This document shows positions 6,574-26,426 of a DNA stretch of 64,000 bases, piece by piece. The first letter of the stretch is position 1; every line of letters starts with the position of its first letter. The translations under genes were made by a program, and so were the position numbers. Origin of the DNA: Caldilineaceae bacterium (GTDB taxonomy: Bacteria > Chloroflexota > Anaerolineae > Caldilineales > Caldilineaceae); assembly GCA_022842065.1 (NCBI GenBank), contig JALHQH010000009.1, positions 130,243-194,242 of the forward strand. The letters run 5' to 3'. The notes below the pieces were generated by a model. That model made no database searches and was not told where the DNA came from. It saw nothing but the letters and a program-made list of their open reading frames with translations.

Positions 6574-6598
6574 GGCGTAGCTGGGCTTCGTGGATTAG

Positions 6599-6636
6599 AA
6601 AACCATCAAGTGTCAAGTGGCACTTGATGGTTTTTT
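6599..6636 (+). terminator. Intrinsic terminator of the hydrolase gene
   Basis: Arms 6601-6612 and 6621-6632 (AACCATCAAGTG and its complement) pair around an eight-base loop, extendable by A-T pairs, and the hairpin runs into six T residues. This is a textbook factor-independent terminator 26 bases after the hydrolase stop codon. Confidence 0.9.
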
Positions 6637-6649
6637 GATTGATTCTCCG

Positions 6650-6757
6650 CTACCCAACCCGCTCCCTCTGCCAATCAGCAATGTTGCGCGCTGCGGCGTC
6701 AAAGGCGATGCCCAGTAGAATAATCGGTTTACCGCCGTTGCGGTAGGGCCAGAAGCA
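6650..6757 (-). pseudogene. C-terminal remnant of an AAA/PD-(D/E)XK nuclease-type protein
   Basis: On the minus strand a short open stretch encodes PYRNGGKPIILLGIAFD followed by AAARNIADWQRE and a stop at 6650-6652. This resembles the C-terminal strand and helix of AAA-ATPase/PD-(D/E)XK proteins (DUF1703-like), which end with a GKxIxxLGIxFD..RNI.DW motif. Upstream the frame is closed by a stop inside the adjacent terminator hairpin and there is no start codon, so this is a leftover of about 36 codons. Recognition rests on the motif alone. Confidence 0.5.
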
Positions 6758-6794
6758 AAAAGCAGCCCGACTTTCATCGAAAGTCGGGCTGCTT
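6757..6794 (-). terminator. Intrinsic terminator of the minus-strand ABC operon
   Basis: Sixteen-base arms 6760-6775 and 6779-6794 pair around a three-base loop. Read on the minus strand, the hairpin is followed by a run of T residues. It lies 29 bases after the stop of the last permease gene, so it ends the import operon. Confidence 0.88.
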
Positions 6795-6823
6795 GATCCT
6801 GCGTATGCTGTAATGCGAGCTTG

Positions 6824-7711: not shown

Positions 7712-7713
7712 CT

Positions 7714-8670: not shown

Positions 8671-8692
8671 GTGGCCAACCTCCAGGGCGAAT

Positions 8693-8785
8693 GACAGGGA
8701 GATACGAGACAAGGAGATACGAGACAGGGAGATACGAGACACGAGAAATTAGATTACTCCGTATCTCGTATCTCGTATCTATATA
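8693..8785. repeat. Short tandem repeats GAGATACGAGACA and GTATCTC
   Basis: Three to four imperfect units containing GAGATACGAGACA (8693-8746) are followed by GTATCTC units (8761-8782) that are complementary to them, so the RNA could fold. The array lies between the binding-protein gene and the first permease gene of the operon. Related GAGACAC units occur in-frame inside the synthetase gene at 20204-20264. Confidence 0.8.
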
Positions 8786-10141
8786 TTACGCGTTCTCATC
8801 CAGACAATTCTGGATCGTCGTGTCGGCTTCGACAAAGGCTTCTTCCGCGCTCTTCTCACCGCGGATGACCGCTTCGAGGGCGGCCCCATAAGCCTGGTTG
8901 ACCACGCCCACGTAGAAGCTGCCGCAATCCGCCGGGTGATCCATGACAGGGAGCAGGGCATCATCGGCACCGTTGACAAAGGCCATAAAATTCTGCGGCG
9001 GGGTGACCAGCCCTTCCATCCAGTCGCTCTGTTCGGCAAGAGAGCGCAGCAACGGCACAATGATCTCGGCCTTGGTCATCTTGCTCTGTACATCCGGGGT
9101 GATAATGTTCTTGACATATTGATAGGCCAGTTCCGGTTGGCTACCGGCGGCGTAGACCGACATGCCCCAGGTACCCATCCCTGTGCGATGTTTGCCATCG
9201 GGCATGAGGGGCATCAGTTGCACATCCCATTCAAACTTGTCGCCGACATTGTCGCGAATGGGGGTGCGCAAGGCTTGAATGTGCGTGTAGATCGCGGCCC
9301 GCCCCAACTGGAATGAATCACCACCGACATCCAGGCCGAGCGGTTGGGCAATGTTGTGTTCGGTCCACAGGTTCGCATAGGCCTGCAACCCTTCGAGCGT
9401 CTTCGGGTCCGACCAGGTCGATTTGCCATCGGCCAGGATCTTGCCGCCGTAGCCTTCCACCCAGGGGTAAAGGGTCGCCCACCAGTTCCAGGTGGCGTTG
9501 GAGAGGCCCCAGTACATGGGGTTGCCATTGGCGTCTTGCTCTAACGCCGTGATCTTCTGGCAGTTGGTAATCAGATCCTCCCAGGTCCAGGTATCGGTGG
9601 GCAGTTCGGCCCCGGCCTGATCAAACAGGGTCTTGTTGTAATACATGGTGACCACATCCAAGCCGGAGGGCAGGAAGTGAATCTCATTGTCAACCGTGCC
9701 CAAGCCCAGCATGGCCGGGAAGACATCGGTCAAATCGACATCGGCATCGCCTTCGGCCAGGGGCTTCAGGTCGAGCGAAACATCATTTTTGGCAAAGGGC
9801 ACCGCATAAAGATCGGCGGTGAAGAAGATATCGGCCAGTGTGCCCGCGGCGGCCTGGGCGTAGACCAACTCGGCCAAATCGCCGCTGATATATTCGAATT
9901 TGGTCGTCACGTCCGGATATTTGGCAATCGTGGCTTCGCTCAAAAATTCGTTGACCGTCTCCACGGGTGGGCCTTTGGCGACCAGGACGCGTAATTCCCC
10001 GGCCATCTGGGCCGGTGTCCCGGTCTCTGCACCCTCGCTTGCCGGCGCAGCAACGGGGGCCGCACAGGCGACCAGCAGAGCGCCGGTGCCGACAATGCCG
10101 GCCGCTTTCAGAAAATTACGACGAGACAATTGATTACTCAT
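8786..10141 (-). CDS. Extracellular sugar-binding lipoprotein of ABC importer
   Basis: A 451-residue family-1 extracellular solute-binding protein. The N-terminus carries a twin-arginine-like SRRNFLK motif and a lipobox (LVAC), giving a lipid-anchored cysteine at residue 26, so it sits on the outer face of the cytoplasmic membrane. The mature part begins with an Ala/Pro/Glu-rich linker and then a periplasmic-binding-protein fold. The start at 10141 follows GGAGGA with eight-base spacing. It is the first gene of the operon with two permeases downstream; the separation by a repeat is typical of operons that need more binding protein than permease. The sugar is not predictable from sequence. Confidence 0.93.
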   Translation of the reverse strand: MSNQLSRRNFLKAAGIVGTGALLVACAAPVAAPASEGAETGTPAQMAGELRVLVAKGPPVETVNEFLSEATIAKYPDVTTKFEYISGDLAELVYAQAAAGTLADIFFTADLYAVPFAKNDVSLDLKPLAEGDADVDLTDVFPAMLGLGTVDNEIHFLPSGLDVVTMYYNKTLFDQAGAELPTDTWTWEDLITNCQKITALEQDANGNPMYWGLSNATWNWWATLYPWVEGYGGKILADGKSTWSDPKTLEGLQAYANLWTEHNIAQPLGLDVGGDSFQLGRAAIYTHIQALRTPIRDNVGDKFEWDVQLMPLMPDGKHRTGMGTWGMSVYAAGSQPELAYQYVKNIITPDVQSKMTKAEIIVPLLRSLAEQSDWMEGLVTPPQNFMAFVNGADDALLPVMDHPADCGSFYVGVVNQAYGAALEAVIRGEKSAEEAFVEADTTIQNCLDENA

Positions 10142-10450
10142 TACTTGGTTCCTCCAGGATAAAAGATGATGGAAAACAGCGTACATGGTGAAAAATTATT
10201 ATCTGCAACACGCAGCTCCGCCAGCCCACTAACCCGCGCCCAGGGGGAGAATGGCCCAGGGGAGAATGGTCAAGGGGCAGTTGCTGCTTGCGCGCTTCTA
10301 CCAAACAGTTCCTTCCCTGCGGGAGACTTAGGGAAGGCTGACTTGCATACCATCCGATCATTGAGCAACAGGCAAGCACATAAAGCCTTATACGGTATAA
10401 TCAGGTTTGGTGGTAAGGACTCGATCATTCGTCGGCAGAAGTTGATGATT

Positions 10451-10460
10451 TGGTATACCA
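10451..10460. promoter_or_regulatory. Operator-like palindrome TGGTATACCA
   Basis: A perfect ten-base palindrome sits immediately downstream of the minus-strand -10 element, overlapping the expected transcription start; a second GTATAC box lies four bases away (10463-10468). The position fits repressor binding, and the TGGTATAC core recurs at the promoters near 10666, 41584 and 41703. The regulator is not in this window; GntR or LacI families are possible. Confidence 0.55.
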
Positions 10461-10461
10461 T

Positions 10462-10491
10462 AGTATACGCCAGCTTAGAAGCAGGTGTCAA
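10462..10491 (-). promoter_or_regulatory. Sigma-70-type promoter of the minus-strand ABC operon
   Basis: On the minus strand, TTGACA (10491-10486) and TATACT (10467-10462) are separated by 18 bases. The -35 is a perfect consensus match and the -10 matches five of six. It points toward the binding-protein gene starting at 10141. Confidence 0.75.
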
Positions 10492-10727
10492 ACGCCAAGC
10501 GCGTGACCTGTAACAGGCGTAAATGGCTGTTTTGGCTGGGTTGGCGCTGCACCCCCATGCCGTGTGCGTCCCAAATTTTCGCAAACAAGGTGACTGTCAC
10601 CTTTCTCCCCCTTTTGTGGTAGACCCCACATAGGGGCTATCGACCTGGAAAATTCGGCGCTTTATGGTATACTTCCGCACTCCCCCTACCCAATCGCCAC
10701 CCAGACTAGAAAGGGTTCGACCAACCT

Positions 10728-11741
10728 ATGCCCATCCAGATTCTTTCCACTCGCGAACTGAGCGCTAAACAACTCGCTAGTATCCATGCCATCGTGCCGG
10801 ACGCCGAAATTGTCCACTTCTGGGCCAAAAGTGGCAGTGAGATTGAGCAGGCCCTTACCCCCAACATCGAAGTGCTTTTCACCGGTCGCGGTGACTATTC
10901 CTTTGCCAATGCGACCGGCCTGCGCTGGGTACAGATGGAAAATGCCGGCATCGATCACATCCACAACACCCCGCTGTGGAACACAACCTTGCCCATTGCC
11001 AGTGCCAATGGGGCCCACCTGCCCCATCTGCCCGAATATGTGCTCACCATGTTGCTGGCCTGGGCGCACCGCCTGCCCCAACTTTTTGACTTTCAAGCCA
11101 AGGGCTATTGGTTCCCCAACGGGCGCATCCATGAACTGTGGCCACGCCCGGTCTATGGACGCACGCTGGGCATTGTCGGCTATGGCGCGATTGGCCGCGA
11201 CCTCGCCCGCATGGCCAAGGCGATGGGGATGCGCATCCTCGCCACGCGGCGGTCAGGCGCTTCCCTGCGCTACGATGGCTACAGCCCCGCCGGCCTGGGT
11301 GACCCCGAAGGTGTTTTGCCCGAAGCCTGGTTTACCCTGGACGAGTTGCCCGCCCTGTTGCGCCAGAGTGATTATGTGGTGCTCGGCGTGCCGCTGGTTG
11401 CCAATACGCACCACCTCATCGGCGCGGCGGAGCTGGCGCAGATGCAGCCCCACGCTCTGCTGATCAACATCGGCCGTGGCGGCTTGATCGATCAGGATGC
11501 CTTGCTTGCCGCGTTACAACAGGGGCGCATCGGTGGCGCGGTGCTCGATGTGACGACGCCGGAGCCATTGCCGGCAGATCACCCCCTATGGCAACAGGAA
11601 AATGTGCTGATCACCCCGCACATCGCCGGTCATATCGAACACCACTTTGACAATGTGGTCGATCTCTTTGCCGAGAATTTACGCCGCGATCTGGCCGGTG
11701 AACCCTTGTACAATTTGGTGGCGCGTGATTTGGGTTACTAA
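10728..11741 (+). CDS. D-isomer-specific 2-hydroxyacid dehydrogenase
   Basis: A 337-residue member of the NAD-dependent D-2-hydroxyacid dehydrogenase family, interconverting 2-oxo acids and D-2-hydroxy acids (glyoxylate/hydroxypyruvate or phosphoglycerate type). VGYGAIGRD is the nucleotide-binding motif; the catalytic set is Arg250 in NIGRGG, the Glu in TPEPL, and His298 in ITPHIAGH. The length is normal for the family and no ACT domain follows. A TATACT box lies 55 bases upstream, next to the same TGGTATAC motif seen at the divergent sugar operon, suggesting shared control. It stands alone and is followed by repeats. Confidence 0.92.
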   Translation: MPIQILSTRELSAKQLASIHAIVPDAEIVHFWAKSGSEIEQALTPNIEVLFTGRGDYSFANATGLRWVQMENAGIDHIHNTPLWNTTLPIASANGAHLPHLPEYVLTMLLAWAHRLPQLFDFQAKGYWFPNGRIHELWPRPVYGRTLGIVGYGAIGRDLARMAKAMGMRILATRRSGASLRYDGYSPAGLGDPEGVLPEAWFTLDELPALLRQSDYVVLGVPLVANTHHLIGAAELAQMQPHALLINIGRGGLIDQDALLAALQQGRIGGAVLDVTTPEPLPADHPLWQQENVLITPHIAGHIEHHFDNVVDLFAENLRRDLAGEPLYNLVARDLGY

Positions 11742-11745
11742 GCGC

Positions 11746-11860
11746 CGCAGGTTGAAACCTGCGTCTACCGTCAGCCGCCACTCCGTGGCTAAGTTCTGCT
11801 GAATGGGAAAACTTAGCCACGGAGTGGCGGCTGACGGTAGACCGGCCTTTTAAGGCCGGT
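11746..11860. repeat. Composite palindromic element, copy 1
   Basis: Three nested hairpins: a small one with CGCAGGTT arms (11746-11763), a perfect 31-base stem (11765-11795 with 11810-11840) around a 14-base loop, and an ACCGGCCTT/AAGGCCGGT hairpin (11841-11860). A rearranged copy with the same modules overlaps the 3' end of the synthetase gene (21871-22010). The stem could also stop transcription of the upstream dehydrogenase gene. Confidence 0.88.
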
Positions 11861-11956
11861 TGTCATCCCCTCATCTTGCCATCCCCTCATCTTGTCATCC
11901 CCTCATCTTGCCATCCCCTCATCTTGTCATCCCCTCATCTTGCCATCCCCTCACCT
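11861..11956. repeat. 16-bp tandem repeat, six copies
   Basis: Six head-to-tail units TGYCATCCCCTCATCT run without gaps; the third base alternates strictly T and C, so the real period is 32 bases repeated three times. The last unit has one extra change. There are no spacers, so it is not a CRISPR array. Confidence 0.92.
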
Positions 11957-12013
11957 TACACTCCTTACCAAAATTTGTTCACGATCCCGTCACGCTTTTT
12001 TATGCTAATTAGC

Positions 12014-12041
12014 TTGACATGTTCTAAAATTTCCTGACAAT
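12014..12041 (+). promoter_or_regulatory. Candidate promoter of the synthetase gene
   Basis: TTGACA at 12014-12019 and GACAAT at 12036-12041 are 16 bases apart, in an AT-rich segment about 75 bases before the start codon. The -35 is perfect and the -10 matches four of six consensus bases. No other candidate in the gap is as good. Confidence 0.5.
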
Positions 12042-12117
12042 AAGATCGAAGATAACTAGATTACATAACTGTATGGTTTTGCGATAGGCTTTGTGTATAT
12101 TGGTCAAGGAAAAGGTA

Positions 12118-15100
12118 ATGAGATCGACGATCATGATGAATGTGCTACCGTCTGCCGTGCAATTGCCCCCTAACCGCCGGTCCGATGGCGAGTGTAAGGC
12201 AAACGGCATTCATGAACTGTTTGAGGCCCAGGCCGCATGCACGCCAGCTGCGGTGGCGGTGGCCTTTGTTGATAATGAACCTGCGGATCCCGGGGCTGCG
12301 CCTGAGCTTCTTGCCACCTTAACCTATGCTGAACTCAACCAGCGCGCCAATCAACTCGCTCACTACCTGCAAGCGTTAGGCATTAGCGGGGTCACCGCTG
12401 AAAAGGGCACCGAGCCATTGGTCGGCCTCTGTGTCGAACGCTCGCTAGAGATGGTAATTGCCCTGCTGGCGATCTTCAAAGCGGGCGCAGCCTACGTGCC
12501 GCTCGATCCGACTTATCCCCAAGAGCGTCTGGCCTTTATGCTAGCGGATGCCAATGTTACTCTGCTCTTGACCCAAGCCGCCTTACAGGATCGCCTGCCA
12601 CCGACCACCGCACCTGTTGTCGATCTGAATCTGGCTGGGCCACAAATTGCGCAGCAACCAACCACCACTCCAATCCACCCGGTATCGCCCCAGCAGCTAG
12701 CCTATGTGATCTACACTTCTGGCTCGACTGGCCGGCCCAAAGGGGTGTTAATCGAGCATGGCGGACTGTGCAATCTTGCTGCCGTGCAACAGCAAACCTT
12801 TGCGCTGCGCCCTGGTCAGCGGGTCTTACAATTCGCCTCGCTCAACTTTGATGCGTCGATCTGGGAAATCTGCATGGCGCTTTGTACCGGCGCAACGCTC
12901 TATGTTGCCCCCAGGCGCGCCTTGTTGCCTGGTCCAACCTTAACCCAACTGCTGGTTGAGCATGCCATCACCCATCTCACCCTCGTGCCCTCCGCGCTTG
13001 CCACCCTCGACCCCGCCCAGCTGCCTGATCTACAGACAGTGATCGTCGCTGGGGAAGCGTGTCCCGCGCCCTTAGTGCGCCGCTGGTTGCCCGGTCGGCG
13101 CTTTTTTAACGCCTACGGCCCAACCGAAACCACGGTCTGTGCCACCATTATGGCCTGTACCGAGACGATGACCTTTGAGACTGCCCCCCCGATTGGCACA
13201 CCGATTGCCAATGTGCAGATCTACATTCTCGACGAACAAGGCAACGAGTTGCCTGACGGCGCGGAAGGGGAACTTTATATCGGTGGCTCCACCCTGGCGC
13301 GCGGCTATCTGAACCGCCCTGACTTAACGGCTGAACGTTTTATCGACGCCCCCTTTGGGGCCGGTCGGCTCTACCGCACGGGTGACCTGGCGCGCCGGCT
13401 GCCGGATGGCAACATCGACTTCCTGGGGCGCATTGATCACCAGGTCAAGCTCCGCGGCTTTCGGATTGAATTAGGGGAGATTGAAGCGCTGCTGGCCGCA
13501 GATCCCCGAGTACAGACGGCGATCGTCGTGGCGCGGCTCACCACCAGTGATCAGCCGCAGTTGGTCGCTTACCTTGTTTTAGCCGACCAGGAACATCGTG
13601 ACCCAGCGGCAACCCGCGCTGCGCTCCGCCAGCTTTTACAGCGCCAATTGCCCGACTATATGATTCCCGCGGCCTTTGTGCTGTTGCCCGCCTTGCCGTT
13701 GATGCCCAACGGCAAAGTCGACCGCCACGCGCTGCCGGCCCCCGCGGATGACGCGTTTGCCACGGGTACCTTTACTCCACCCCAAACGGCTACCGAGATC
13801 GCCCTCGGGGCGATCTGGGCCGACGTGTTGGGTTTACAGCAAGTCGGGCAGACGACCAACTTTTTTGCCGCCGGTGGCCATTCCCTGCTCGCGACGGGCG
13901 TGATTGCCCGCGCCCGTGCCGTCTTTGGGCTCGCGTTGCCCATGACCGCCCTCTTTGCAGCACCGACCTTGGCCGAACTGGCCACGGTGATCGATGGGCT
14001 GCAAGGGTCTGCCGCGCCCTGTTTGCTACCCCCCATGATCGCCGGTGAACGCCCTGCGCTTCTGCCGCTCTCCTATGCCCAACAGCGCCTCTGGTTCTTG
14101 GACCAGTTGGAAGGGCCGAGTGCCACCTATAACATTGCCTTGCCCCTGCGCCTGCATGGTCCCCTCGTGGTGGATGCGCTCCAAGCCGCCTTGCAAGCCC
14201 TGGTTGACCGCCACGAAGTATTGCGCACCACTTTCCTGGCGGTGGATGGGGTGGCGCAACAACAGATCGCCCCGGTGCTCACCCTGTCGCTCCCCGTGGT
14301 AACCCTGGAAAATGCCGCCGATTCGGCAGCGGCCCTGCAAGCGTTGTTGGAAAGGGCGGCCTGGCAACCCTTTGACCTGGCGACCGGCCCACTGGTGCGC
14401 ACGACGCTCTACCGCTTGCACGCCAACGAACATGTGCTGTTGCTGGCTTTCCATCACATCATCATTGATGGCTGGTCTATGGGCATCCTGCTGCATGAAT
14501 TGGATGCTTATTACCGCGCGTCTGGCACTGGTGAAGGGCTTCCCTTGCCCCCTTTGCCGCTGCAATATACCGACTTTGCGCTCTGGCAACGCGCCTGGTT
14601 GCAAGGTGCAATCCTCGATCAGCAGCGCGCGTATTGGGCGCAACAACTGGCCGATGCCCCGACGCTGCTTGCCCTGCCCACCGATTTCTCACGTCCAGCC
14701 GTGCAGACCTTTCAGGGTGGGGTGGTGGACTTTCGCTTGGATGCAGCGTTAACCACGGCGCTGCAAACCCTGAGCCAAAGCCACAGCGTGACCCCTTTTA
14801 TGGTCATCTATGCCGCCTTTGCGACCCTGTTGGCCCGTTATAGTGGCCAGACCGATCTGGTGATCGGTACCACCGTTGCCAATCGCCAGCAGCGTGAACT
14901 TGAACCCCTGATCGGCTTCTTTGTCAACACCCTGCCCCTGCGGATAAAGCTAGGGGACGAACCCACTGGTGCCGCACTCTTAACCCGTGTGCGCGAATTG
15001 ACGCTCGCAGCCTATGCCCACCAGGATCTGCCCTTTGAGCAACTGGTGGCTGAACTCCAGGTCGAACGCAATCCACGTTATGCGCCGCTCTGCCAGGTGA

Positions 15101-18100
15101 TGTTGACCTTTGACAACACGCGCAGTTCGGCCCAGCGTTTGGGTGATCTGGCGGTGGTGCCGGTTGGGCTGGCGAGTCGCGTCGCCAAATTTGATCTGAC
15201 CCTGAGCCTGACCGAGGGGGCTGATACCATCCAGGCCAGCTTGGAGTACAACAGTGACCTCTTCACCGCGGCGACGATTGCGCGGATGGCCGGCCATTTC
15301 CAGGTGCTCCTTGCCGCGCTGGTGACTGATACCACCACGCCCGTTACCCAACTCCCGCTGCTCACCGCGGCTGAACGTCATCAACTGCTGGTGACGTGGA
15401 ACAACACCGCAACCGCTTACCCCCGCGACAAAACGATTCACGATCTCTTCGCCGCCCAAGCCGCCCGCACCCCCGACGCCATCGCCCTGGTTTTTGCCGG
15501 CGCTGATTCACGTATCACGCATCACGCATCACTAACCTATGCCAAACTCGATGCCCGTGCCAATCAACTCGCCCACCACCTGCAGCACCTGGGGATCGCA
15601 CCAGGCAGCCTGGTTGGTCTCTGTCTGGAGCGCTCGCCACTGTTGATCGTAGGCATCCTCGGGATTCTCAAAGCGGGGTGCGCCTACCTGCCGCTCGACC
15701 CGACTTATCCACAGGACCGGCTGGCCCTCATGGTGGCCGATAGCGCCACACCGCTGATCCTAACCCAGGCTACGCTACAGGCGCACCTGCCCCAGACCGT
15801 GCCAGCCCTCTGTTTAGAGACAGCTTGGCCGCAGATTGCTACCCAACCCACCGCCCCATTACCGGCCGCGGTGACGCCTAACTCTACGGCCGAAAGTCTG
15901 GCCTATGTTATGTACACCTCCGGCTCCACCGGCCAACCCAAAGGGGTCTGTGTGACTCATCGCAATGTGGTGCGCCTGGTCCAGCAGACCAATTTTGTGA
16001 ACTTGACCGCCGATGAGGTTTTCCTCCAACTGGCCCCGATTGCCTTTGACGCGGCGACCTTTGAAATTTGGGGCGCGCTGCTCAATGGCGCGCGCCTGGT
16101 GGTCATGGCCCCTGGCCAACCGTCACTCGCAGCCATCGGTGAGACGATTCAGCACTATGGGGTCACCACCCTCTGGTTGACGGCCGGCCTCTTCCACCTG
16201 ATGGTCGATGAGCAGCTTGACGCCCTGCGTCCCCTACGTCAACTCTTGGCCGGCGGTGATCAGCTTTCGGTTCCCCATGTGGAACGGGTGCTGCAGGCAT
16301 TGCCCCACTGCCGCCTGATCAACGGTTACGGTCCCACCGAAAACACCACCTTTACCTGTTGTTACACTTTTCCGTCCGATACCCCAGTCGGTGCCACTGC
16401 GCCCATCGGGCGACCAATCGCCAATACCCAAGTCTACCTGCTCGACCAACAGTTGCAACCCGTTCCCATCGGCGTGCCGGGTGAACTTTACGCCGGGGGT
16501 GATGGCGTGGCGCAGGGGTATCTCAACCGCCCTGCCTTGACCGCTGAACGGTTTATCCCCAATCCGTTTGCATACAGTTTGTCTGGTATATCACAAAGGT
16601 TATACAAAACCGGCGACTTGGCCCGCTGGTTGCCAGATGGGAACATTGAATTCCTCGGTCGGCTTGATGGGCAGGTGAAAATCCGCGGTTTCCGCATCGA
16701 ACTGGGGGAAATTGAAGCGACCCTGGCCCAACATGCGCGGGTGCGCGCTGTGGTTGTGCTGGCGCGCCAGGTCGCCGATGCGCTAGGGGCTGAGAAGCAG
16801 TTGGTGGCTTATGTGGTACCCGCCGCGCCGCCGAATGATTTGCCGAATGATTTGCCGAATGATTTGCCGAATGATTTGCCGAATGATTTGCCGGGCGATT
16901 TACTAGGCACCTTGCGCCCCTTCCTGCAAAATAAACTCCCCGACTACATGGTCCCCACGCATTTTTTGCTCCTAGACCGTTTGCCGTTGACGCCCAATGG
17001 CAAGATCGATCGCCAGGCGTTGCCGGCTCCCGCTGCGCAAGCATCGGCCTCCGCAGCCGGCTTTGCCCCACCCCAAACCCCGTCCGAAGCGCGCTTGGCA
17101 ACGCTGTGGGCGCAGTTGTTGGGTGTCGCGCAGGTTGGGCGCACCGACAACTTTTTTGACCTGGGCGGGCACTCGCTCTTGGCCACGCAACTTGTTGCGC
17201 GCGTGCGGACGGCCTTCGCGGTCGAAATTGGGGTGCGCACCCTCTTTGAAGCACCCACCGTCGGGGCGCTCGGCGCAGTCATCGATGCGCAGCGGCGCAC
17301 CGACCAAGTTGCCCAACTGCCCGCGCTAACGGTGGCGACACTGCGCCCGGCACGCCCCACCCCTTTACCCTTATCCTTTGCCCAGCAGCGGCTCTGGTTT
17401 GTGGATCAACTGGAAGGGGCCAACGCGATCTACAATATCCCCTTCGCGCTGCACCTGCGCGGTCAACTGGATCTTGAAGCGCTGCAGCAGGCCTTAAATG
17501 CGGTTATCGCCCGGCATGAAAGCTTGCGCACCACTTTCCCCGCACCTAATGGCATCGCCCAACAACTCATTGCCGGGCGGCTTGAACTGGCTTTGCCCCT
17601 GGTGGATCTACAAGGGGCCGCGGTGAGCAGTGACCCTGATGAACAAGCCGCCCTGCTTCATGCACAGCTTCAGGCTGCGATCTGGCTACCCTTTGATCTG
17701 GCCACCGGGCCGCTCTTGCGCGCCACCCTCTACCGGCTGGACGCTACCGATCATCTGCTCGTCGTCACCTTTCACCACATCATTGCTGATGGCTGGTCGC
17801 TGGACATTTTTCTGCATGAACTGGCGGTGTACTATGGTGCAGACGGCACCGAGATTGCCACCGCACTGCCGGCTCTCCCCCTGCACTATGCGGATTACAC
17901 CTGCTGGCAACAGGCTTGGCTCCAAGGGGCGGTATTGGAACAACAACGGACCTACTGGCGGCAGCAACTGGCCAACGCGCCCACGCTGTTGTCCCTGCCC
18001 ACCGATCAGCCCCGTCCGGCGATCCAACGCTACCAGGGCAGTACCGTCGCCCAGACGATTGGGACTGAATTGACCGCAGCCCTGCACCACCTGAGTCGCA

Positions 18101-21100
18101 CCCAGGGGGTGACGTTATTTATGACGCTCTACGCCGCCTATGCAACCTTGTTGGCTCGGTATAGCGACCAGGAAGATCTGGTGATCGGCACGCCGATTGC
18201 CAACCGCCAACAGCGCGAGTGGGAATCGTTGATCGGCTTCTTTGTCAACACCCTGCCCCTGCGCGCCGACTTGACCAACAATCCCTCCGTGGCCGAACTG
18301 CTGCAACGGGTGCGCCGCCTGACGCTCGACGCCTATAGCCATCAGGATCTCCCCTTTGAGCAGTTGATCAGTGACCTCCAGATCGAACGCAGCCTGAGCC
18401 ATGCCCCCCTCTTCCAGGTGATGTTGGCCTTTAACAACACCCCCCTTTCCCCGCCACCCTTTGGTGAATTGACCCTAACGCCACTTGAGCTGGAGAGCGT
18501 CGTCGCCAAATTCGACCTGACGCTGCAGCTCAGTGAAGTCGGGGGCGAATTGCAGGCGCGTTGGGAGTATAACTGCGATCTCTTCAGCCGCGCGACGATT
18601 GAACGCATGGCCGGCCACTTTACTGTGCTGCTGATGGGCATGGTCGCCGACCCCGCCACGCCCGTCCAACAGTTGCCCCTGCTCACCACCGCCGAGCGTC
18701 AACAACTGCTGGTCACCTGGAACCAGACCGCACGCCCCTACCCGCAAGACCAACTGATTCACCAGCTATTCGAAGCGCAAGCCGCCCACACGCCCCATGC
18801 CCTGGCTGTGATTTTTGACGCAGCGCTGGACCGCGCCCAAGTGTCACCCTGCCACCCTGTCACCTTGTCACCTTGTCACCCCCCGCAAGTACTCGCCGCG
18901 GCTGCCACCCTGTCACCTTGCCACTCTGCCACCCTCACCTACCACCAACTCAACGCCCAGGCCAACCAACTCGCCCACGCCTTGCGACGGCAAGGGGTAG
19001 GGCCAGGGACATTGGTCGGTCTCTGTGTGGAACGATCCACGGCGATGCTGGTGGGGCTGCTGGGCATTCTCAAGGCTGGCGCGGCCTATGTGCCACTCGA
19101 TCCAGCCTATCCCCAAGACCGTTTGACCATGATCAGCGCAGAAGCGGGGCTCGCCCTGATTGTGACCCAACAGGGGCTGCTCGACCGCTGTCCCCCCGCC
19201 GCGGGCGCACCGATCTGCTTGGACCGCGATTGGGTGGCGATCAATGGGCTGTGTACCGACAACCCACCCGCGCTGGCCCAATCAACCGATCTGGCCTATG
19301 TGATCTACACCTCCGGCTCGACTGGACGGCCCAAAGGGGTGATGGTCACCCACCAGAACTTGGTCCACTCGACGGTTGCCCGCTTTCACACGTATACGGC
19401 ACCCGTGGGGCGCTTCTTGCTGCTCTCGTCCTTTGCCTTTGACAGCTCGGTTGCCGGCATCTTCTGGACACTCTGCCAGGGGGGCGCGCTGGTATTGCCC
19501 CGCCCCGATGACGAGAAAGATCTGGCACAGTTGGCGCGGCTGATCAGCGACCACCAGATCACCCACCTGCTGGCGTTGCCCTCCCTCTATAACCTGCTGC
19601 TCACTTACAGCGGGGCTGAACAGCTACGTTCGTTGCAGGTGGCGATTGTCGCGGGCGAGGCCTGTCCGCCGACCTTGCCCGCTCAGCACTACGCCGCTTT
19701 GCCTGCGGCCACCCTCTACAACGAATATGGTCCCACCGAGGGCACCGTCTGGAGCACGGTTTACCAGGTGCCCCAGGATTGGGCGGGCAGTCAAGTACCC
19801 ATCGGCTATCCGATTGCGAATATGCAGCTTTACGTGTTGGACCGTCACCGTCAACCGGTCGGGCTGGGCGTGCCGGGGGAACTCTATATCGGCGGCGCGG
19901 GCATCACCCCTGGCTATCTAAAGCGCCCCGACCTCACCGCGGAAAAATTTGTGCCCAATCCCCTCAACCCGGCACAACCAACTGAGCGGCTCTACCGCAC
20001 CGGCGATTTGGTGCGTTACCTGCCCGATGGTGCGCTCGAGTTCTTGGGGCGCATCGATCACCAGGTGAAGCTGCGCGGCTTTCGGATTGAGTTGAATGAG
20101 ATTGCCACGCTCCTGCTGCAACATCCCCAGGTGCAGGATGCAACGGTGATTGTGCGCACCGATGGGGCGGGTGAGGGAAGATTGGTGGCTTATGTCACGG
20201 CCAGGGAGACACGAGACACGAGACAAGGAGAGACGAGACACGAGACACGAGAAGGGGAGACACGCGACTTGCGGGCTTTTTTGCAGAGTAAGTTGCCGGG
20301 TTATATGGTGCCGGCGGCTTTTGTTTGGTTGACGGCGTTGCCGCTGACGCCGAATGGTAAAGTGGATCGCCGGGCCTTGCCTGCGCCGGATGTGCTGCAA
20401 TCCAATCTGGGGCGCGCCTATGTTGCCCCGCGCACGGCGGTTGAGCGCCAGGTGGCAGCAATCTGGCAGAGGTTATTGGGGGTGGCCCAAGTCAGTGTTG
20501 ATGACGATTTCTTTGCCTTGGGCGGTCATTCTTTGCTGCTGGCGCAGTTGGCGGCGCAACTGGGGTTAACCTTCCAGCGTGAGCTCTCCCTGCGCACCCT
20601 CTTTCAGGCCCCCACGTTGGCGGCGATGAGTGTCGCTATCACCAACGCACCGCCTCAAACGGGGGTGGTGAGGTCACCAGTGGCTCCCTTGCCACTGAAG
20701 TCATCACCCTATCTGCACTACAGCACCGAACCGCTTGCCACCGCCATCAAAGCCGGGCGAATCGCCGGGGTGACGGCGGCGGCGTTGGCCTATTGGCCGG
20801 ATGGGTTGATCGCACAACATGGCCTCTCGCCGCAGTGGGTGATGGACGAACTCGTGCATCGTCGCCCCACGGTTGCCAGCATTCTCGACACCGCGTGGGG
20901 GCGGATTGCCACCATCCTGCTACCCCGCCTGCATTCCGAACTTTATCTGGATCCCACCTTGCCGGCGGCGATTGGTGAGGCGCTGGCCTTTGCCGGTGAA
21001 ATCGGCGCCCAAAGTGTCTCGCTGACCGGGTTGCTGCCGTCGGCCACCGACTATGGGCGCAAGCTTACCCAGGCCATAGAGGGACGCACTGACCTGCCCC

Positions 21101-21936
21101 AGCTTACCACCGGCCACGCCATGACTGCCGCGGCGGTGGTGCTGAATGTCGAACAGATCCTCCACGAAGCCCGGCGCACGTTGGCACAGGAACGGGTTGT
21201 TTGCCTGGGGCTGGGTTCGATTGGGCTGAGCAGTTTACGCTTGCTACTGCAAGTAGCGCCCCATCCTCAAACGATCATGCTCTGTGATCTGGCGGCTAAG
21301 CTCGAACAATTGCAGGCGATTGGCCGTGAGTTAGTTGAGATCTACGGCTTTCAAGGCGAGATCCAGATCATCGCGGTACAACAGGAATTGCCCCCCGCCG
21401 TCTATACGGCAAGCCTGATTATCGGTGCCACGAATGTGCCCGACGTGTTGGATGTAGACCGTTTACGGCCCGGCACTTTGCTGGTTGACGATTCCGGCCC
21501 TCACTGTTTTGATCCGCAGCGCGCCATCGCTCGCTTTGCGCAGCAGCACGACCTGCTCTTTACCGAGGGGGGCGCGATCCAACTGCCGCAGCCGATCCAC
21601 CAAACCTTTTACACGCCGGCAGCGGTGGCAAACATCTTCGCCGCCAGTGCGCATGACAATCCACAACTGATGATGGGCTGCGTCCTGTCGAGCTTGCTGA
21701 GCACCAAGGCGCATGGGTTGCCGCCCACCATCGGCAGCGTCGCACCCGACCTGGCGCTGGCCTACTATCAAAGGATCAAAACTTTAGGCATCCATGCAGC
21801 GTCATTACATTGTGGGGACTATCATTTCACTGCCGCCGCCGTCGCTCAGTTTCGTCAACAGGCTGCTGGTACAGTGTCAGCTAAGTTCTGCGGAATTAGT
21901 CACGGAGTGGCGGCAGAAGGTAGGCCAGCCTTTTAA
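12118..21936 (+). CDS. Non-ribosomal peptide synthetase, three modules, with AAR-like terminal reductase domain
   Basis: A 3272-residue synthetase with order A1-T1-C2-A2-T2-C3-A3-T3-R. The ATG at 12118 follows AAGGA at seven bases. ATP-binding YTSGSTG motifs begin near residues 199, 1266 and 2397; carrier serines in GGHSLL are Ser589, Ser1686 and Ser2805; condensation motifs HHIIIDG and HHIIADG lie near 779 and 1886. There is no epimerase, methyltransferase or thioesterase. Pocket residues read DAWTIAAVCK (Phe code), DAFWLGGTFK (Val-like) and DSALIAEVWK (unassigned). From about 2862 the chain matches cyanobacterial acyl-ACP reductase (AAR): TTGHAMTAAAVV, then LGLGSIG, then MMGCVLSS with Cys3188 where AAR has its active cysteine. 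Reductive release as a tripeptide aldehyde is inferred. In-frame tandem repeats occupy several linkers, and the last dozen or so residues come from a repeat element. No phosphopantetheinyl transferase or MbtH gene is nearby. Confidence 0.92.
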   Translation: MRSTIMMNVLPSAVQLPPNRRSDGECKANGIHELFEAQAACTPAAVAVAFVDNEPADPGAAPELLATLTYAELNQRANQLAHYLQALGISGVTAEKGTEPLVGLCVERSLEMVIALLAIFKAGAAYVPLDPTYPQERLAFMLADANVTLLLTQAALQDRLPPTTAPVVDLNLAGPQIAQQPTTTPIHPVSPQQLAYVIYTSGSTGRPKGVLIEHGGLCNLAAVQQQTFALRPGQRVLQFASLNFDASIWEICMALCTGATLYVAPRRALLPGPTLTQLLVEHAITHLTLVPSALATLDPAQLPDLQTVIVAGEACPAPLVRRWLPGRRFFNAYGPTETTVCATIMACTETMTFETAPPIGTPIANVQIYILDEQGNELPDGAEGELYIGGSTLARGYLNRPDLTAERFIDAPFGAGRLYRTGDLARRLPDGNIDFLGRIDHQVKLRGFRIELGEIEALLAADPRVQTAIVVARLTTSDQPQLVAYLVLADQEHRDPAATRAALRQLLQRQLPDYMIPAAFVLLPALPLMPNGKVDRHALPAPADDAFATGTFTPPQTATEIALGAIWADVLGLQQVGQTTNFFAAGGHSLLATGVIARARAVFGLALPMTALFAAPTLAELATVIDGLQGSAAPCLLPPMIAGERPALLPLSYAQQRLWFLDQLEGPSATYNIALPLRLHGPLVVDALQAALQALVDRHEVLRTTFLAVDGVAQQQIAPVLTLSLPVVTLENAADSAAALQALLERAAWQPFDLATGPLVRTTLYRLHANEHVLLLAFHHIIIDGWSMGILLHELDAYYRASGTGEGLPLPPLPLQYTDFALWQRAWLQGAILDQQRAYWAQQLADAPTLLALPTDFSRPAVQTFQGGVVDFRLDAALTTALQTLSQSHSVTPFMVIYAAFATLLARYSGQTDLVIGTTVANRQQRELEPLIGFFVNTLPLRIKLGDEPTGAALLTRVRELTLAAYAHQDLPFEQLVAELQVERNPRYAPLCQVMLTFDNTRSSAQRLGDLAVVPVGLASRVAKFDLTLSLTEGADTIQASLEYNSDLFTAATIARMAGHFQVLLAALVTDTTTPVTQLPLLTAAERHQLLVTWNNTATAYPRDKTIHDLFAAQAARTPDAIALVFAGADSRITHHASLTYAKLDARANQLAHHLQHLGIAPGSLVGLCLERSPLLIVGILGILKAGCAYLPLDPTYPQDRLALMVADSATPLILTQATLQAHLPQTVPALCLETAWPQIATQPTAPLPAAVTPNSTAESLAYVMYTSGSTGQPKGVCVTHRNVVRLVQQTNFVNLTADEVFLQLAPIAFDAATFEIWGALLNGARLVVMAPGQPSLAAIGETIQHYGVTTLWLTAGLFHLMVDEQLDALRPLRQLLAGGDQLSVPHVERVLQALPHCRLINGYGPTENTTFTCCYTFPSDTPVGATAPIGRPIANTQVYLLDQQLQPVPIGVPGELYAGGDGVAQGYLNRPALTAERFIPNPFAYSLSGISQRLYKTGDLARWLPDGNIEFLGRLDGQVKIRGFRIELGEIEATLAQHARVRAVVVLARQVADALGAEKQLVAYVVPAAPPNDLPNDLPNDLPNDLPNDLPGDLLGTLRPFLQNKLPDYMVPTHFLLLDRLPLTPNGKIDRQALPAPAAQASASAAGFAPPQTPSEARLATLWAQLLGVAQVGRTDNFFDLGGHSLLATQLVARVRTAFAVEIGVRTLFEAPTVGALGAVIDAQRRTDQVAQLPALTVATLRPARPTPLPLSFAQQRLWFVDQLEGANAIYNIPFALHLRGQLDLEALQQALNAVIARHESLRTTFPAPNGIAQQLIAGRLELALPLVDLQGAAVSSDPDEQAALLHAQLQAAIWLPFDLATGPLLRATLYRLDATDHLLVVTFHHIIADGWSLDIFLHELAVYYGADGTEIATALPALPLHYADYTCWQQAWLQGAVLEQQRTYWRQQLANAPTLLSLPTDQPRPAIQRYQGSTVAQTIGTELTAALHHLSRTQGVTLFMTLYAAYATLLARYSDQEDLVIGTPIANRQQREWESLIGFFVNTLPLRADLTNNPSVAELLQRVRRLTLDAYSHQDLPFEQLISDLQIERSLSHAPLFQVMLAFNNTPLSPPPFGELTLTPLELESVVAKFDLTLQLSEVGGELQARWEYNCDLFSRATIERMAGHFTVLLMGMVADPATPVQQLPLLTTAERQQLLVTWNQTARPYPQDQLIHQLFEAQAAHTPHALAVIFDAALDRAQVSPCHPVTLSPCHPPQVLAAAATLSPCHSATLTYHQLNAQANQLAHALRRQGVGPGTLVGLCVERSTAMLVGLLGILKAGAAYVPLDPAYPQDRLTMISAEAGLALIVTQQGLLDRCPPAAGAPICLDRDWVAINGLCTDNPPALAQSTDLAYVIYTSGSTGRPKGVMVTHQNLVHSTVARFHTYTAPVGRFLLLSSFAFDSSVAGIFWTLCQGGALVLPRPDDEKDLAQLARLISDHQITHLLALPSLYNLLLTYSGAEQLRSLQVAIVAGEACPPTLPAQHYAALPAATLYNEYGPTEGTVWSTVYQVPQDWAGSQVPIGYPIANMQLYVLDRHRQPVGLGVPGELYIGGAGITPGYLKRPDLTAEKFVPNPLNPAQPTERLYRTGDLVRYLPDGALEFLGRIDHQVKLRGFRIELNEIATLLLQHPQVQDATVIVRTDGAGEGRLVAYVTARETRDTRQGETRHETREGETRDLRAFLQSKLPGYMVPAAFVWLTALPLTPNGKVDRRALPAPDVLQSNLGRAYVAPRTAVERQVAAIWQRLLGVAQVSVDDDFFALGGHSLLLAQLAAQLGLTFQRELSLRTLFQAPTLAAMSVAITNAPPQTGVVRSPVAPLPLKSSPYLHYSTEPLATAIKAGRIAGVTAAALAYWPDGLIAQHGLSPQWVMDELVHRRPTVASILDTAWGRIATILLPRLHSELYLDPTLPAAIGEALAFAGEIGAQSVSLTGLLPSATDYGRKLTQAIEGRTDLPQLTTGHAMTAAAVVLNVEQILHEARRTLAQERVVCLGLGSIGLSSLRLLLQVAPHPQTIMLCDLAAKLEQLQAIGRELVEIYGFQGEIQIIAVQQELPPAVYTASLIIGATNVPDVLDVDRLRPGTLLVDDSGPHCFDPQRAIARFAQQHDLLFTEGGAIQLPQPIHQTFYTPAAVANIFAASAHDNPQLMMGCVLSSLLSTKAHGLPPTIGSVAPDLALAYYQRIKTLGIHAASLHCGDYHFTAAAVAQFRQQAAGTVSAKFCGISHGVAAEGRPAF
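15511..15532. repeat. Heptamer repeat CGYATCA inside adenylation domain 2
   Basis: Three seven-base units (CGTATCA, CGCATCA, CGCATCA) lie in frame near the front of A2, between the LVF strand and LTYAKLD. The same linker in A3 carries a different array, while A1 has none. The encoded residues SRITHHAS are not conserved in A domains. Confidence 0.8.
16831..16890. repeat. 12-bp tandem repeat, five copies, in adenylation domain 2
   Basis: Five perfect CCGAATGATTTG units encode a PNDL repeat between the LVAYVV strand and the LRPFLQNKLPDYMVP segment of A2. The unit is a multiple of three, so copy number can change without frameshift. The equivalent A3 position carries another array. Confidence 0.93.
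18843..18937. repeat. Octamer repeat CCYTGYCA inside adenylation domain 3
   Basis: Two blocks (18843-18878 and 18903-18937) of eight-base CCCTGTCA-type units are translated as SPCHPVTLS-like residues at the front of A3. The same octamer forms the pure intergenic array at 44459-44530. The encoded stretch adds a non-conserved loop before LTYHQLN. Confidence 0.9.
20204..20264. repeat. GAGACAC-type repeat inside adenylation domain 3
   Basis: Units of GAGACACGAGACA type are translated as an Arg/Glu/Thr-rich loop (ETRDTRQGETRHETR) between LVAYV and LRAFLQSKLPGYMVP of A3. The array is related to the intergenic one at 8693-8746 and sits at the same domain position as the PNDL repeat of A2. Confidence 0.88.
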
Positions 21937-22010
21937 GGCTGGCATCTGACCCGCAGGTTGAAACCTGCGGCTACCATCTGCCGTCACTCCGTGACTCGAT
22001 CCGCACGGCA
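21871..22010. repeat. Composite palindromic element, copy 2, overlapping the synthetase stop
   Basis: It shares modules with 11746-11860: GCTAAGTTCTGC, CACGGAGTGGCGGC, a GCCAGCC/GGCTGGC hairpin around TTTTAA (21925-21943), a CGCAGGTT hairpin and the GCCGTCACTCCGTGAC arm. The synthetase stop codon (21934-21936) lies inside one hairpin, so the final codons are element sequence. Confidence 0.85.
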
Positions 22011-22096: not shown

Positions 22097-24256
22097 ATGT
22101 TTCCACTTGTTCCCGTGGCGCTGGCGGGAGGCGTACTGACCGCCGGCCTGAAAGTTCTACAAAAACGCAAAGTACAAGCCCGACAGCACAACTTGATCAC
22201 CACATTGGCGGACATGGTGCCGGCATCGCAAGTAGCAGCACTTGATCAAAAGCAGCCGCCGGTGTGGTCGGGCGCGACCCAAACGGTTGCGGCAACGCTT
22301 GCCAAGCTTGATGACCGTTACCAGCATTTTTTCCAAACGCAAATCGACCCGTTGTTGATCAGTCGTACCCGCCGCGCCCAGTTGGCCGACTTAGCCGCCG
22401 GTCGCGAACAAGCGGTTGGGGCAGCGGAGCAGTCGATCAACCGTCACATTGGGATTGGCGTCGGCGCGGTGGCAACGGTGGGGCTGGCATATCTAACCGC
22501 GCTGCCCTTGGCCCCGCTGGTGATTGCCACCGGCTTCTATCTCACCATTCCCCTCTTTCGCATCGGTTGGCAGATTGCCACCAAAGAGCGGCGCGTGAGC
22601 GTGGCCCATCTGCTGGCACTTTATTTTACCGGCATGTGGCTGGGCGGCTACTACACCATCGGTGCCGTGGGTATGATCTTACTCGGCTTGGCGCAAAAGG
22701 TGATGGTGATCTGTGAAAACAGCATGCGCGACAATCTCGTCAACATCTTTGGACAGCAGCCCCAGCAGGTGTGGGTGCTGATCGATGGGGTGGAGACCGA
22801 GATCGCCTTTGCCAATCTGCGCGTGGATGATATTCTCGTGCTCGATGTAGGCCAGATGGTGCCGATCGACGGGGTGATCGTCCAGGGCATGGCCTCGATT
22901 GACGAACATATGTTGACGGGGGAGGCACAGCCAGTCGAAAAAGGGGTGGGTGATCAAGTCCTCGCCGCGACGATTGTGCTGAGTGGGCGGCTGCAGGTGC
23001 GCGTCGAAAAGACAGGCAGTGAGACCACTGCGGCCAAGATCGGCGAAGTGCTCAACCGCAATGAGGAATATCGCCTGGCCACCGAGCAGAAGGCGATTGC
23101 GATTGCCGAGAAGTCGTTGGTGCCCATGTTGGCCGCTGGGGCCGTTGCCCTGCCCCTGGCCGGGGTCGGCGGGATGTTTGCCATGTTGGGCAGCAATTTT
23201 ACCATGAATATGGTGGCGCTGCGCCCGCTCACGATCCTGAACTTTTTTAATACCGCCTCGCAGGTCGGCATTCTCATTAAAGATGCCGACGCGCTGGAAC
23301 GGCTTAACGCGATCACCGCCGTTGTCTTTGACAAAACCGGCACGCTCACCTCGACAGAGCCACACGTGAGGGCGATTCACACCTATAACGGCAAAACCCA
23401 GGACGAGGTGTTGACCCTGGCCGCCGCCGCCGAACATCGCCAGAGCCATCCGATTGCCCACGCGATTCTGGCTGCCGCGGCAGAACGCAACTTAGCCCTG
23501 CCTGCTGTGGAAGAAGCCGCCTATCAAGTTGGCTATGGGTTGCAGGTGCAGGTGGCTGGGCAGCAGATCCGGGTCGGCAGCCTACGTTTTCTCCAGAGTG
23601 AAGGCATCGCCCTACCCGCTGCGATTGATGCTTTGCAGGGGGCAGCACAGGCGCTGGGCCATGCCCTGGTCTATGTCGCTGTCGATGAACTGCTGGCCGG
23701 TGCGCTTGAATTAGAGAGCACCATCCGCCCGGAAGCCAAGGCGGTGGTCGAACAGTTGCAGGCGCAGGGCCTGACCCTCTACATCATCTCCGGCGATCAC
23801 GAGGCCCCCACTCGCCAACTGGCCGGGGAACTGGGGATTGATCACTATTTTGCCGGCGTCTTGCCGGCCGATAAAGCCGGTTTGGTCAGTGACCTACAGG
23901 CCGCAGGGCATAAAGTCTGTTTTGTCGGTGACGGCATCAACGATGCGATTGCCCTGCGCAAGGCGGATGTGTCGGTGTCACTGCGCGGGGCAACCACCGC
24001 CGCCACCGATACCGCGCAGGTCGTGTTGATGAACGCTGATCTGCGCCAACTACACGCGCTCTTTACGCTGGGACGCAAACTGGAGCAGAGCATTGCCTTC
24101 AACTTCAGTGTCGCCACCGCTTTCAGTTTGCTGAGCGGAGGCAGCATCCTCTTCTTGCACCTGAAATTTGTCGCGGTAGAGGTGCTCGCCGCCACCCAAC
24201 TGTTAACCGGTGTACGGATCGCCAGTAAGCCGTTGATCGAGCGGGGGCAAGAGTAG
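22097..24256 (+). CDS. P1B-like P-type ATPase lacking the CPx motif
   Basis: A 719-residue P-type ATPase. The actuator loop LTGEAQPVEK, phosphorylation site DKTGTLT (Asp412), an HP dipeptide in SHPIAHAIL and hinge GDGINDAIAL mark it as P1B-like. In place of the membrane CPC/SPC/TPC metal motif that should lie about 24 residues before GILIK it has GSNFTMNMVALRP, with no cysteine. There is no N-terminal heavy-metal-binding domain; instead a soluble region of about 115 residues precedes four hydrophobic segments. The GAGGTGA ribosome-binding site supports the ATG at 22097. It follows the synthetase by 160 bases on the same strand, so it may be co-transcribed and could serve the peptide product or a metal linked to it; that is inference. 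Substrate unknown. Confidence 0.88.
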   Translation: MFPLVPVALAGGVLTAGLKVLQKRKVQARQHNLITTLADMVPASQVAALDQKQPPVWSGATQTVAATLAKLDDRYQHFFQTQIDPLLISRTRRAQLADLAAGREQAVGAAEQSINRHIGIGVGAVATVGLAYLTALPLAPLVIATGFYLTIPLFRIGWQIATKERRVSVAHLLALYFTGMWLGGYYTIGAVGMILLGLAQKVMVICENSMRDNLVNIFGQQPQQVWVLIDGVETEIAFANLRVDDILVLDVGQMVPIDGVIVQGMASIDEHMLTGEAQPVEKGVGDQVLAATIVLSGRLQVRVEKTGSETTAAKIGEVLNRNEEYRLATEQKAIAIAEKSLVPMLAAGAVALPLAGVGGMFAMLGSNFTMNMVALRPLTILNFFNTASQVGILIKDADALERLNAITAVVFDKTGTLTSTEPHVRAIHTYNGKTQDEVLTLAAAAEHRQSHPIAHAILAAAAERNLALPAVEEAAYQVGYGLQVQVAGQQIRVGSLRFLQSEGIALPAAIDALQGAAQALGHALVYVAVDELLAGALELESTIRPEAKAVVEQLQAQGLTLYIISGDHEAPTRQLAGELGIDHYFAGVLPADKAGLVSDLQAAGHKVCFVGDGINDAIALRKADVSVSLRGATTAATDTAQVVLMNADLRQLHALFTLGRKLEQSIAFNFSVATAFSLLSGGSILFLHLKFVAVEVLAATQLLTGVRIASKPLIERGQE

Positions 24257-25133: not shown

Positions 25134-26426
25134 TTGCTCTCCACCCTGCGTCTGTTCAGTGCGCGGATTGACCGCACCTTTACGACTCCGTTGACGCCTG
25201 ATGTGCGGCGTAACATGTACATGGAATTGCTGGCGTCGGTCGCCTATGGCATCTTCTATGCCGCCGCCATCCAATACATTCCCGTCGTTTTACGCCGCCT
25301 GGGCGCATCCTCGGATTTGTTGGCCCTCTACACCGCACAGACCTATCTCGGCTCGATCCTCACCTCGCTCAGTATTGTGCTGATGCGCCGGCGGCGGCCC
25401 AAAAATTTTGTCACCCTCTGTTGGTTGATGGCGCGCAGCCTTTTTCTGCTCTTTGCGCTGGTGACGCAAGTGCACTGGTTGCTGGTGGTCACCGCCTTCT
25501 TCTGGCTGCTGGAGGCGTTTCCATCGCCCGGCTATACCCGCATCATCCAGGTAATCTACCCGGAGCGGGTGCGCGGCCAGATCCTCTCGGTGGTGCGCCT
25601 GGGTATGGTGAGCGCAATTCTATTGGCCACCCCCCTTGCCGGCTGGGCGCTTGATCAGGTGGGCTATCGAGTGCTCTTTCCGATTGCGGGCGTGCTGGGT
25701 ATCTGTGCCACGTTGCTTTTTAACCAATTACGCGTTGATGAAGGGCCGCTGCCGCCGCGTGAAACCCGCTCGGTGCCGAGCCTCTGGCAACTGGCGCGCC
25801 ATAATCGTCCCTTTACCATCCATCTGCTCTCCTTTACTGTCTATGGCATGGGCGGCCTGCTGGGCTATCCGCTCTACGCCATTGTCCAGGTGGATCGACT
25901 TCAGCTTTCCTACACGCAGATTGGTTTCTTAGGCTTGGGCCAATCGGTAGCTTGGCTGGTCGGCTTTTTAATCTGGGGCCGCCTGGTTGACCGGAAAGGC
26001 GGTTTGCCGGTTTTGCGCCTGAACCAGTTGATCTCGGTGATCATCCCCCTCACCTATATCTGGGCGACCGCTGACTGGATGTTGCTGCCGGCCTTTATCG
26101 TCCAGGGGTTGATTAGCGCTGGGGTCGATATCGGGCTGATCAGCACCTGTATTCAACTGGCCGACAAAGAAAAGGTGGTCGAGTACGCCGCGATCCAGGC
26201 AACGATCATCGGGCTGCGCGGGCTGATCACTCCCTTTCTGGGCGCGGCCCTGCTGCGGCTCGGGGTTGCCGACACCTATATTTTTGCCCTGGGCGCCGGC
26301 TTGATCTTCCTCTCGTGGTTGATCCTGCTGCGGGTCGAAGGGACCCCCGCCACCCCCCAGAACTTGTCGATCCGCCGTTCGTTGCGCGCCCGCTGGCCCT
26401 TACGCTGGCGCTTTCCCCGGTTATAG
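25134..26426 (+). CDS. Major facilitator superfamily transporter
   Basis: A 430-residue membrane protein with about twelve hydrophobic segments in two halves, typical of MFS transporters. The charged loop RRRRPKNF after the third helix and GRLVDRKGG between helices 8 and 9 match the MFS loop motifs. The start is uncertain: TTG at 25134 keeps the LTPDVRRN cytoplasmic lead-in, while the first ATG (25215) would begin almost in the first helix. There is no good ribosome-binding site. It stands alone between the toxin-antitoxin pair and a repeat-rich gap. Substrate and direction are unknown. Confidence 0.82.
   Translation: MLSTLRLFSARIDRTFTTPLTPDVRRNMYMELLASVAYGIFYAAAIQYIPVVLRRLGASSDLLALYTAQTYLGSILTSLSIVLMRRRRPKNFVTLCWLMARSLFLLFALVTQVHWLLVVTAFFWLLEAFPSPGYTRIIQVIYPERVRGQILSVVRLGMVSAILLATPLAGWALDQVGYRVLFPIAGVLGICATLLFNQLRVDEGPLPPRETRSVPSLWQLARHNRPFTIHLLSFTVYGMGGLLGYPLYAIVQVDRLQLSYTQIGFLGLGQSVAWLVGFLIWGRLVDRKGGLPVLRLNQLISVIIPLTYIWATADWMLLPAFIVQGLISAGVDIGLISTCIQLADKEKVVEYAAIQATIIGLRGLITPFLGAALLRLGVADTYIFALGAGLIFLSWLILLRVEGTPATPQNLSIRRSLRARWPLRWRFPRL

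Follow-up and report, generated by a model that had tools for sequence, protein, structure and literature searches.

How does a non-ribosomal peptide synthetase release its product when its last domain is neither a thioesterase nor a canonical reductase? The question is raised by a 64,000-nucleotide stretch of DNA from a Caldilineaceae bacterium (assembly GCA_022842065.1, contig JALHQH010000009.1, positions 130,243 to 194,242; hereafter the window), in which one open frame on the + strand (12091-21936) encodes a whole synthetase. An earlier reading of this sequence, here the original prediction, had proposed that the protein ends in a domain like acyl-ACP reductase (AAR) and that it frees its peptide as an aldehyde, a different chemistry for such synthetases. 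We find that the terminal domain belongs to the family of the carmabin TAD, an abbreviation that we take to stand for terminal amidation domain, and that it is built on the AAR fold. On a narrow balance of probability, it releases the finished peptide as a C-terminal primary amide.

The synthetase has the order A-PCP-C-A-PCP-C-A-PCP-TAD (12118..21936, +; A, adenylation; C, condensation; PCP, carrier protein), and a Pfam scan of the protein recovers three adenylation, two condensation and three carrier domains. Its frame opens with TTG at 12091, and an ATG at 12118, behind a good ribosome-binding site (AGGAAAAGG), is the likely start of a 3272-residue protein. Residue numbers are counted here from 12091; starting at the ATG reproduces the numbering of the original prediction, which is lower by nine (its Cys3188 is our Cys3197). 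The terminal domain (residues 2872-3258; 20704..21864, +) directly follows the GGHSLL phosphopantetheine site of the third carrier protein (20521..20538, +), which would pass it the peptide, and runs to near the protein end. Among relatives of at least 600 residues, a carrier motif stands immediately before the TAD in 100 of 143. Canonical thioester reductases of synthetases (PF07993) offload with a nicotinamide cofactor and have no catalytic cysteine. In the region past the third carrier protein, Pfam gave no match to anything, including thioesterase (PF00975) and the NAD_binding_4 reductase (PF07993), and both are ruled out for the end of this protein, as had been predicted. The same library detects NAD_binding_4 in the homologue P0021, where TAD and PF07993 stand side by side, and thioesterases in P0046, P0062 and P0072.

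Structural comparison places the domain on the AAR fold, with its cysteine aligned. The six motifs quoted in the original prediction all occur where, and in the order, it had put them: VSLTGLLPS (21016), LTTGHAMTA (21103), GLGSIG (21208), LVDDSGP (21481), TEGGAI (21562) and MMGCVLSS (21670). The likeness is far above chance: at E<=0.001 one search returned 136 homologues and a second 190, and a PDB entry matches at E=1.8e-96. The domain shares the fold of the carmabin TAD along its full length. In naming the AAR fold and the position of its active cysteine, the original prediction was right on a real and non-obvious point; it is the aldehyde that is not the best-supported product. Fold and active cysteine are common to the window domain and AAR (PDB 6jzy, 6jzq, 6jzu, 6jzz), whereas identity is only 17-20% (19.6% for two AARs measured) and the AAR profile TIGR04058 gives 13.4 bits, far under its cut-off of 449.7, so that the profile comparison does not place the domain within AAR proper. 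The nearest named family is PigE, whose profile matches weakly (5.8e-9; 34.8 bits against a cut-off of 850) within its N-terminal part, and the window domain shares 21.5% identity with a protein of PigE-N type (L087). The architectures differ as well: the six AARs used are separate enzymes with no synthetase fusion, and the PigE and TamH reductase domains are fused to a transaminase, whereas Pfam found no class-III transaminase on the window protein. Two other candidates were rejected: an unrelated Rossmann enzyme, as the structural Z score is still 28.0 at the last AAR entry and then drops to 13.7, and a new release fold, as the carmabin TAD structure is already solved.

Which residues set these domains apart from AAR? 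We aligned 274 full-length homologous domains (of 322, with 48 partial ones dropped) with those of the window and of the carmabin chain, adding six AARs from cyanobacteria and a single protein of PigE-N type. The counts below are out of 276 TADs, window and carmabin chain included; because certain genes appear twice among the proteins and loci, counts such as 273/276 are not independent. Cys3197 (21679..21681, +), the equivalent of Cys2238 in the carmabin TAD and aligned with the active cysteine of AAR, is kept in 273/276 TADs and 6/6 AARs; three actinobacterial TADs (L061, L064, L065) have Ser in its place. His3009 of the TTGH motif (21115..21117, +) is His in 266/276 TADs and Asn in all six AARs. 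The second Asp of the VDDS motif (Asp3133-Asp3134; 21487..21492, +) is kept in 265/276 and replaced by Gly in 6/6 AARs, and the following Ser3135 is found in 273/276, where AAR has Gly. We would place both His3009 and Asp3134 in the active site. All seven TADs with Asp at the His3009 place (P0075, P0077 to P0082) have Tyr at the second-Asp place, a joint change expected if the two residues touch; an eighth Tyr occurs there in a TAD that does not have this Asp. Asp3066, which comes just past Rossmann strand 2 (21286..21288, +), is kept in 274/276 TADs at a point where AAR is gapped, and together with the GLGSIG dinucleotide-binding loop (21208..21225, +) it probably forms an NAD(H)-type site. 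Across 25 core columns the window and the carmabin chain both equal the consensus throughout, as do 154 of the 276. The window TAD falls in a separate clade of 12 sequences (support 1.0); one of its members is a Thiothrix frame showing only one module.

The closest solved counterpart is the carmabin TAD (PDB 9e4s, 9e4u, 9e4x, 9e50, 9e56), which shares with the window domain its fold, cysteine, NAD(H)-type site and position after a carrier; the carmabin pathway is cyanobacterial and has an amide product, whereas the window synthetase, of the separate clade, has three modules and a His-type last module. The family of this relative is therefore already structurally public, and the window adds a further member. 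A 2025 paper reportedly describes TAD as putatively responsible for terminal amidation and draws a comparison with AAR; our literature search on TAD structures found no paper. According to their PDB entries, the carmabin TAD was crystallised in both NAD and NADH forms, and in one structure a pantetheine analogue is bonded to Cys2238. With the cysteine lying beside the dinucleotide, this bonded analogue, known to us from the PDB titles, makes acyl transfer to Cys3197 a natural first step. Family, fold, cysteine alignment, conserved residues and post-carrier position are thus computed properties, from which we infer a conditional sequence of events: the finished peptide would be moved from the third carrier protein to Cys3197 as a thioester beside bound NAD(H), and would depart from it, most probably with a primary amide at its C-terminus. 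PMC10949194 describes terminal amides in hectoramide B, carmabin A and vatiamide E/F, gives the terminal domain of HcaD, the last enzyme for hectoramide B, as 83.5% identical to that of VatR, and proposes ammonolysis. As the nearest solved relative comes from an amide-product pathway, we consider release as an amide more probable than release as an aldehyde.

Several points weigh against this conclusion. Our literature search found no published TAD reaction, and in PMC10949194 the enzymology is called unstudied and the amide-linked pathways named are all cyanobacterial; the window lies in a separate clade. Plain ammonolysis needs no conserved NAD site, and none of the 10 neighbour genes scanned was recognisable as an ammonia supplier. 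The architecture of relatives also tells in part against the TAD as only releaser. The TAD is the final domain in 115 of 120 large homologues, but a thioester reductase follows it in three (P0021, P0030, P0052) and a thioesterase in two (P0046, P0067), and in four more a thioesterase lies between the last carrier and the TAD (P0058, P0062, P0071, P0072; by direct Pfam scan for P0062 and P0072, by the homologue Pfam list and GxSxG position for P0058 and P0071). These second release domains, nine in 120, retain their signature motifs and so appear intact; they are hard to reconcile with a sole releaser, and a thioester reductase would have no substrate in an amide.

The same nine proteins are what speaks for a domain that is auxiliary, with another enzyme freeing the peptide, for instance an alpha/beta hydrolase (5539-6573) acting in trans. 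We consider this very unlikely: the window TAD keeps 25/25 core residues, Pfam shows no other release domain on its protein, and the hydrolase gene lies 5.5 kb off, past three opposite-strand genes and one same-strand gene. The thioesterase-TAD order, once found, lowered our estimate for the amide by a trace, leaving it just above even, and raised that for an auxiliary role, previously smaller still, to its present low level.

A reductase after the TAD would be easier to understand if the TAD made an aldehyde, which the second enzyme could turn to an alcohol. In such a reductive release, Cys3197 would take the peptide, NADH would reduce the thioester and Phe-Val-histidinal would leave, perhaps to be processed further. 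The AAR fold and the cysteine are both present, and the weak PigE-profile match recurs in 43/44 TADs of set A1, the window included. According to PMC9594044, moreover, the AAR-type domain of TamH, which acts on fatty acyl chains, converts a carrier-bound chain into C12 aldehyde, a reaction for which NADH serves and NADPH does not. The aldehyde of the original prediction is thus a plausible rival, but a possibility that we rate well below the amide: the nearest pathways of known product yield amides (PMC10949194), His and Asp stand in the TAD where AAR has Asn and Gly, the AAR profile score is far below cut-off, and the thioesterases before or after the TAD in 6/120 are left just as unexplained.

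Amide release as we favour it could also incorporate a reductive step. In this redox-neutral variant the thioester would be reduced to the aldehyde, ammonia would add to form a hemiaminal, and the hydride would return to the cofactor it came from to leave the amide. This would explain why an AAR-like NAD(H) site is retained where the known pathways give amides, and both NAD and NADH forms have been crystallised. It is a proposal only, with no ammonia source among the scanned neighbours, and we regard it as unlikely.

A further observation on the cofactor comes from the neighbours of other TAD genes. A scan of named genomes gave 90 confirmed TAD loci, of which 80 were kept, from cyanobacteria, proteobacteria, Chloroflexota, Planctomycetota, Opitutales, actinobacteria, Clostridia and others. 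In four unicellular cyanobacteria, a glutamine-dependent NAD synthetase is the gene immediately after the TAD synthetase; each of these genomes has two full-length copies, against one in two cyanobacterial genomes without such a neighbour. The neighbour copies branch apart from the remaining ones (support 1.0), with their ICED and SGGxDS motifs retained. A profile search, with a profile to which the neighbour copies in L009, L010, L011, L014 and L080 contributed alongside other copies, but not those in L039 and L079, found NAD synthetase in 7/80 TAD loci from three lineages: the four cyanobacteria, Robbsia (one gene away from the TAD) and two alphaproteobacteria. The genes lie at L009 1873-3567, L010 11284-13050, L011 11239-12912, L014 11275-12954, L039 13668-15707, L080 8902-9750 and L079 8887-9729, and all seven genomes carry another full copy elsewhere. 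Neither the four cyanobacteria nor the two alphaproteobacteria are mutually independent; counted by lineage (3), a Poisson test that treats loci as independent, with an expectation estimated from roughly 1-2 copies in every 5 Mb and 1.35 Mb of sequence, gives P about 0.003 to 0.02. None was found in 18 further TAD loci (the phylum of G010 supplied 17, a cyanobacterial class search one), of which L147 is probably not new (compare L055) and L148 and L163 end at contig edges, and none lies within the window. Three genomes with stand-alone TADs (G008, G015, G311) have second NAD-synthetase genes outside the examined loci.

It is conceivable that NAD serves the TAD as nitrogen donor and not as redox cofactor. 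The carboxamide of nicotinamide would attack the peptidyl-Cys thioester, the resulting imide would be hydrolysed to the peptide amide and nicotinate adenine dinucleotide, and NAD synthetase would re-amidate the latter. This would explain both an NAD site by the cysteine of an amide-linked domain and the extra NAD-synthetase genes nearby, but we treat it as a long shot. The neighbour gene may instead reflect extra NAD supply or self-resistance. In the two alphaproteobacteria the copies are short and have no glutaminase domain, which makes them unlikely ammonia donors; the one in L079 is interrupted by a stop. In L080 the short NAD synthetase and the TAD-like gene lie with genes for an alcohol dehydrogenase, parts of a B12 mutase, an MFS transporter and a DJ-1/PfpI protein, and none of the eight genes scanned (5680-13075) is a synthetase; this setting, of alcohol dehydrogenase, methylmalonyl-CoA-mutase-type and B12-binding genes, points to an acyl-CoA substrate.

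What peptide would reach the terminal domain? Adenylation domain 1 (12208..13734, +) has the code DAWTIAAVC(K), read as Phe by comparison with the GrsA code, and domain 2 (core 15448..16524, +) has DAFWLGGTF(K), which we take as Val, although the common Val code, DALWIGGTFK, differs at two places. The other features of the assembly line are condensation domain 1 (14062..15390, +), the second carrier protein (17092..17280, +) and the HHxxxDG catalytic motif of condensation domain 2 (17773..17793, +). Adenylation domain 3 (18904..20379, +), with DSALIAEVW(K), is predicted to be His-type: DSALIAEVWK is listed in PMC12283262 for His-activating domains, and is said there to accept beta-hydroxy-His. 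All three codes recur in P0001, the Val-like second and His third codes in P0002, and the His code in P0057 and P0059 with a different architecture. The absence of a starter condensation domain implies a free N-terminal amine, and the product is most likely H-Phe-Val-His-X. A route to the amide by Gly cleavage is at odds with the His-type last code of the window synthetase; in relatives, DILQ-type codes, presumably Gly-like, occur in 24/114 last modules. A free amine, two amides and a third-position His constitute the amino-terminal Cu(II)- and Ni(II)-binding (ATCUN) layout, which binds both metals tightly. If the predicted peptide is correct, the product would have this layout and a simple metal assay would become available, with a possible role beside the metal-type ATPase next to the synthetase.

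That heavy-metal-type P-type ATPase (22097..24256, +; TIGR01525 371.6 bits, cut-off 346.25) starts 160 bp downstream; it has the DKTGT motif and lacks a CPx motif. An inverted repeat lies between the two genes and no such ATPase was seen beside other TADs, the search of their loci giving just two matches, both weak and partial; a shared operon is therefore doubtful and the link, with the CPx motif absent, is a lead only. An MFS transporter (25134..26426, +) is a putative partner; that beside the TAD of cyanobacterium L007 is no close kin of it. A palindromic repeat with a CACGGAGTGGCGGC core in both orientations brackets the synthetase gene (11740-11865 and 21880-22000). The final ~20 residues of the synthetase frame fall within its second copy, and the structure model has low confidence there. 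A short tandem repeat of type CATCCCCTCATCTTG lies just upstream (11865-11960).

TADs are sparse in the genomes sampled: at least 2/291 in the class of G004, 2/398 in the phylum of G009 and 13/400 in the phylum of G010 (cut-offs 1e-30, 1e-30 and 1e-20, respectively), each sample including its centring genome and each count being a lower bound, as the best few candidates per genome were scored. In the 400 genomes of the last phylum no relative exceeded 49% identity. Three of its large genomes (10.7-13.7 Mb; L155-L162, L162 partial) have two or three stand-alone TAD genes each. Stand-alone genes in Hahella, Erwinia and Robbsia (L036, L038, L039, L047) each directly follow another gene. For neighbours, 70 genes were scanned first and then 88 of another 133 (very long and very short genes dropped), with tallies of the 25 commonest families. 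The gene before the TAD in L036 and L038 is a luciferase-like monooxygenase (family in 4/70 genes), and in Opitutales a sulfotransferase gene (L024 11229-12338; family in 5/70) directly follows the TAD synthetase.

C-terminal amides are valued in peptides, which gives weight to how synthetases may form them through an AAR-like domain. The window offers a compact three-residue system with a predictable substrate in which amide and aldehyde can be told apart, and the NAD-synthetase neighbours of some relatives make the question of the cofactor directly testable by labelling. The His-third tripeptide and the association with NAD synthetase in some relatives are the two leads to follow.
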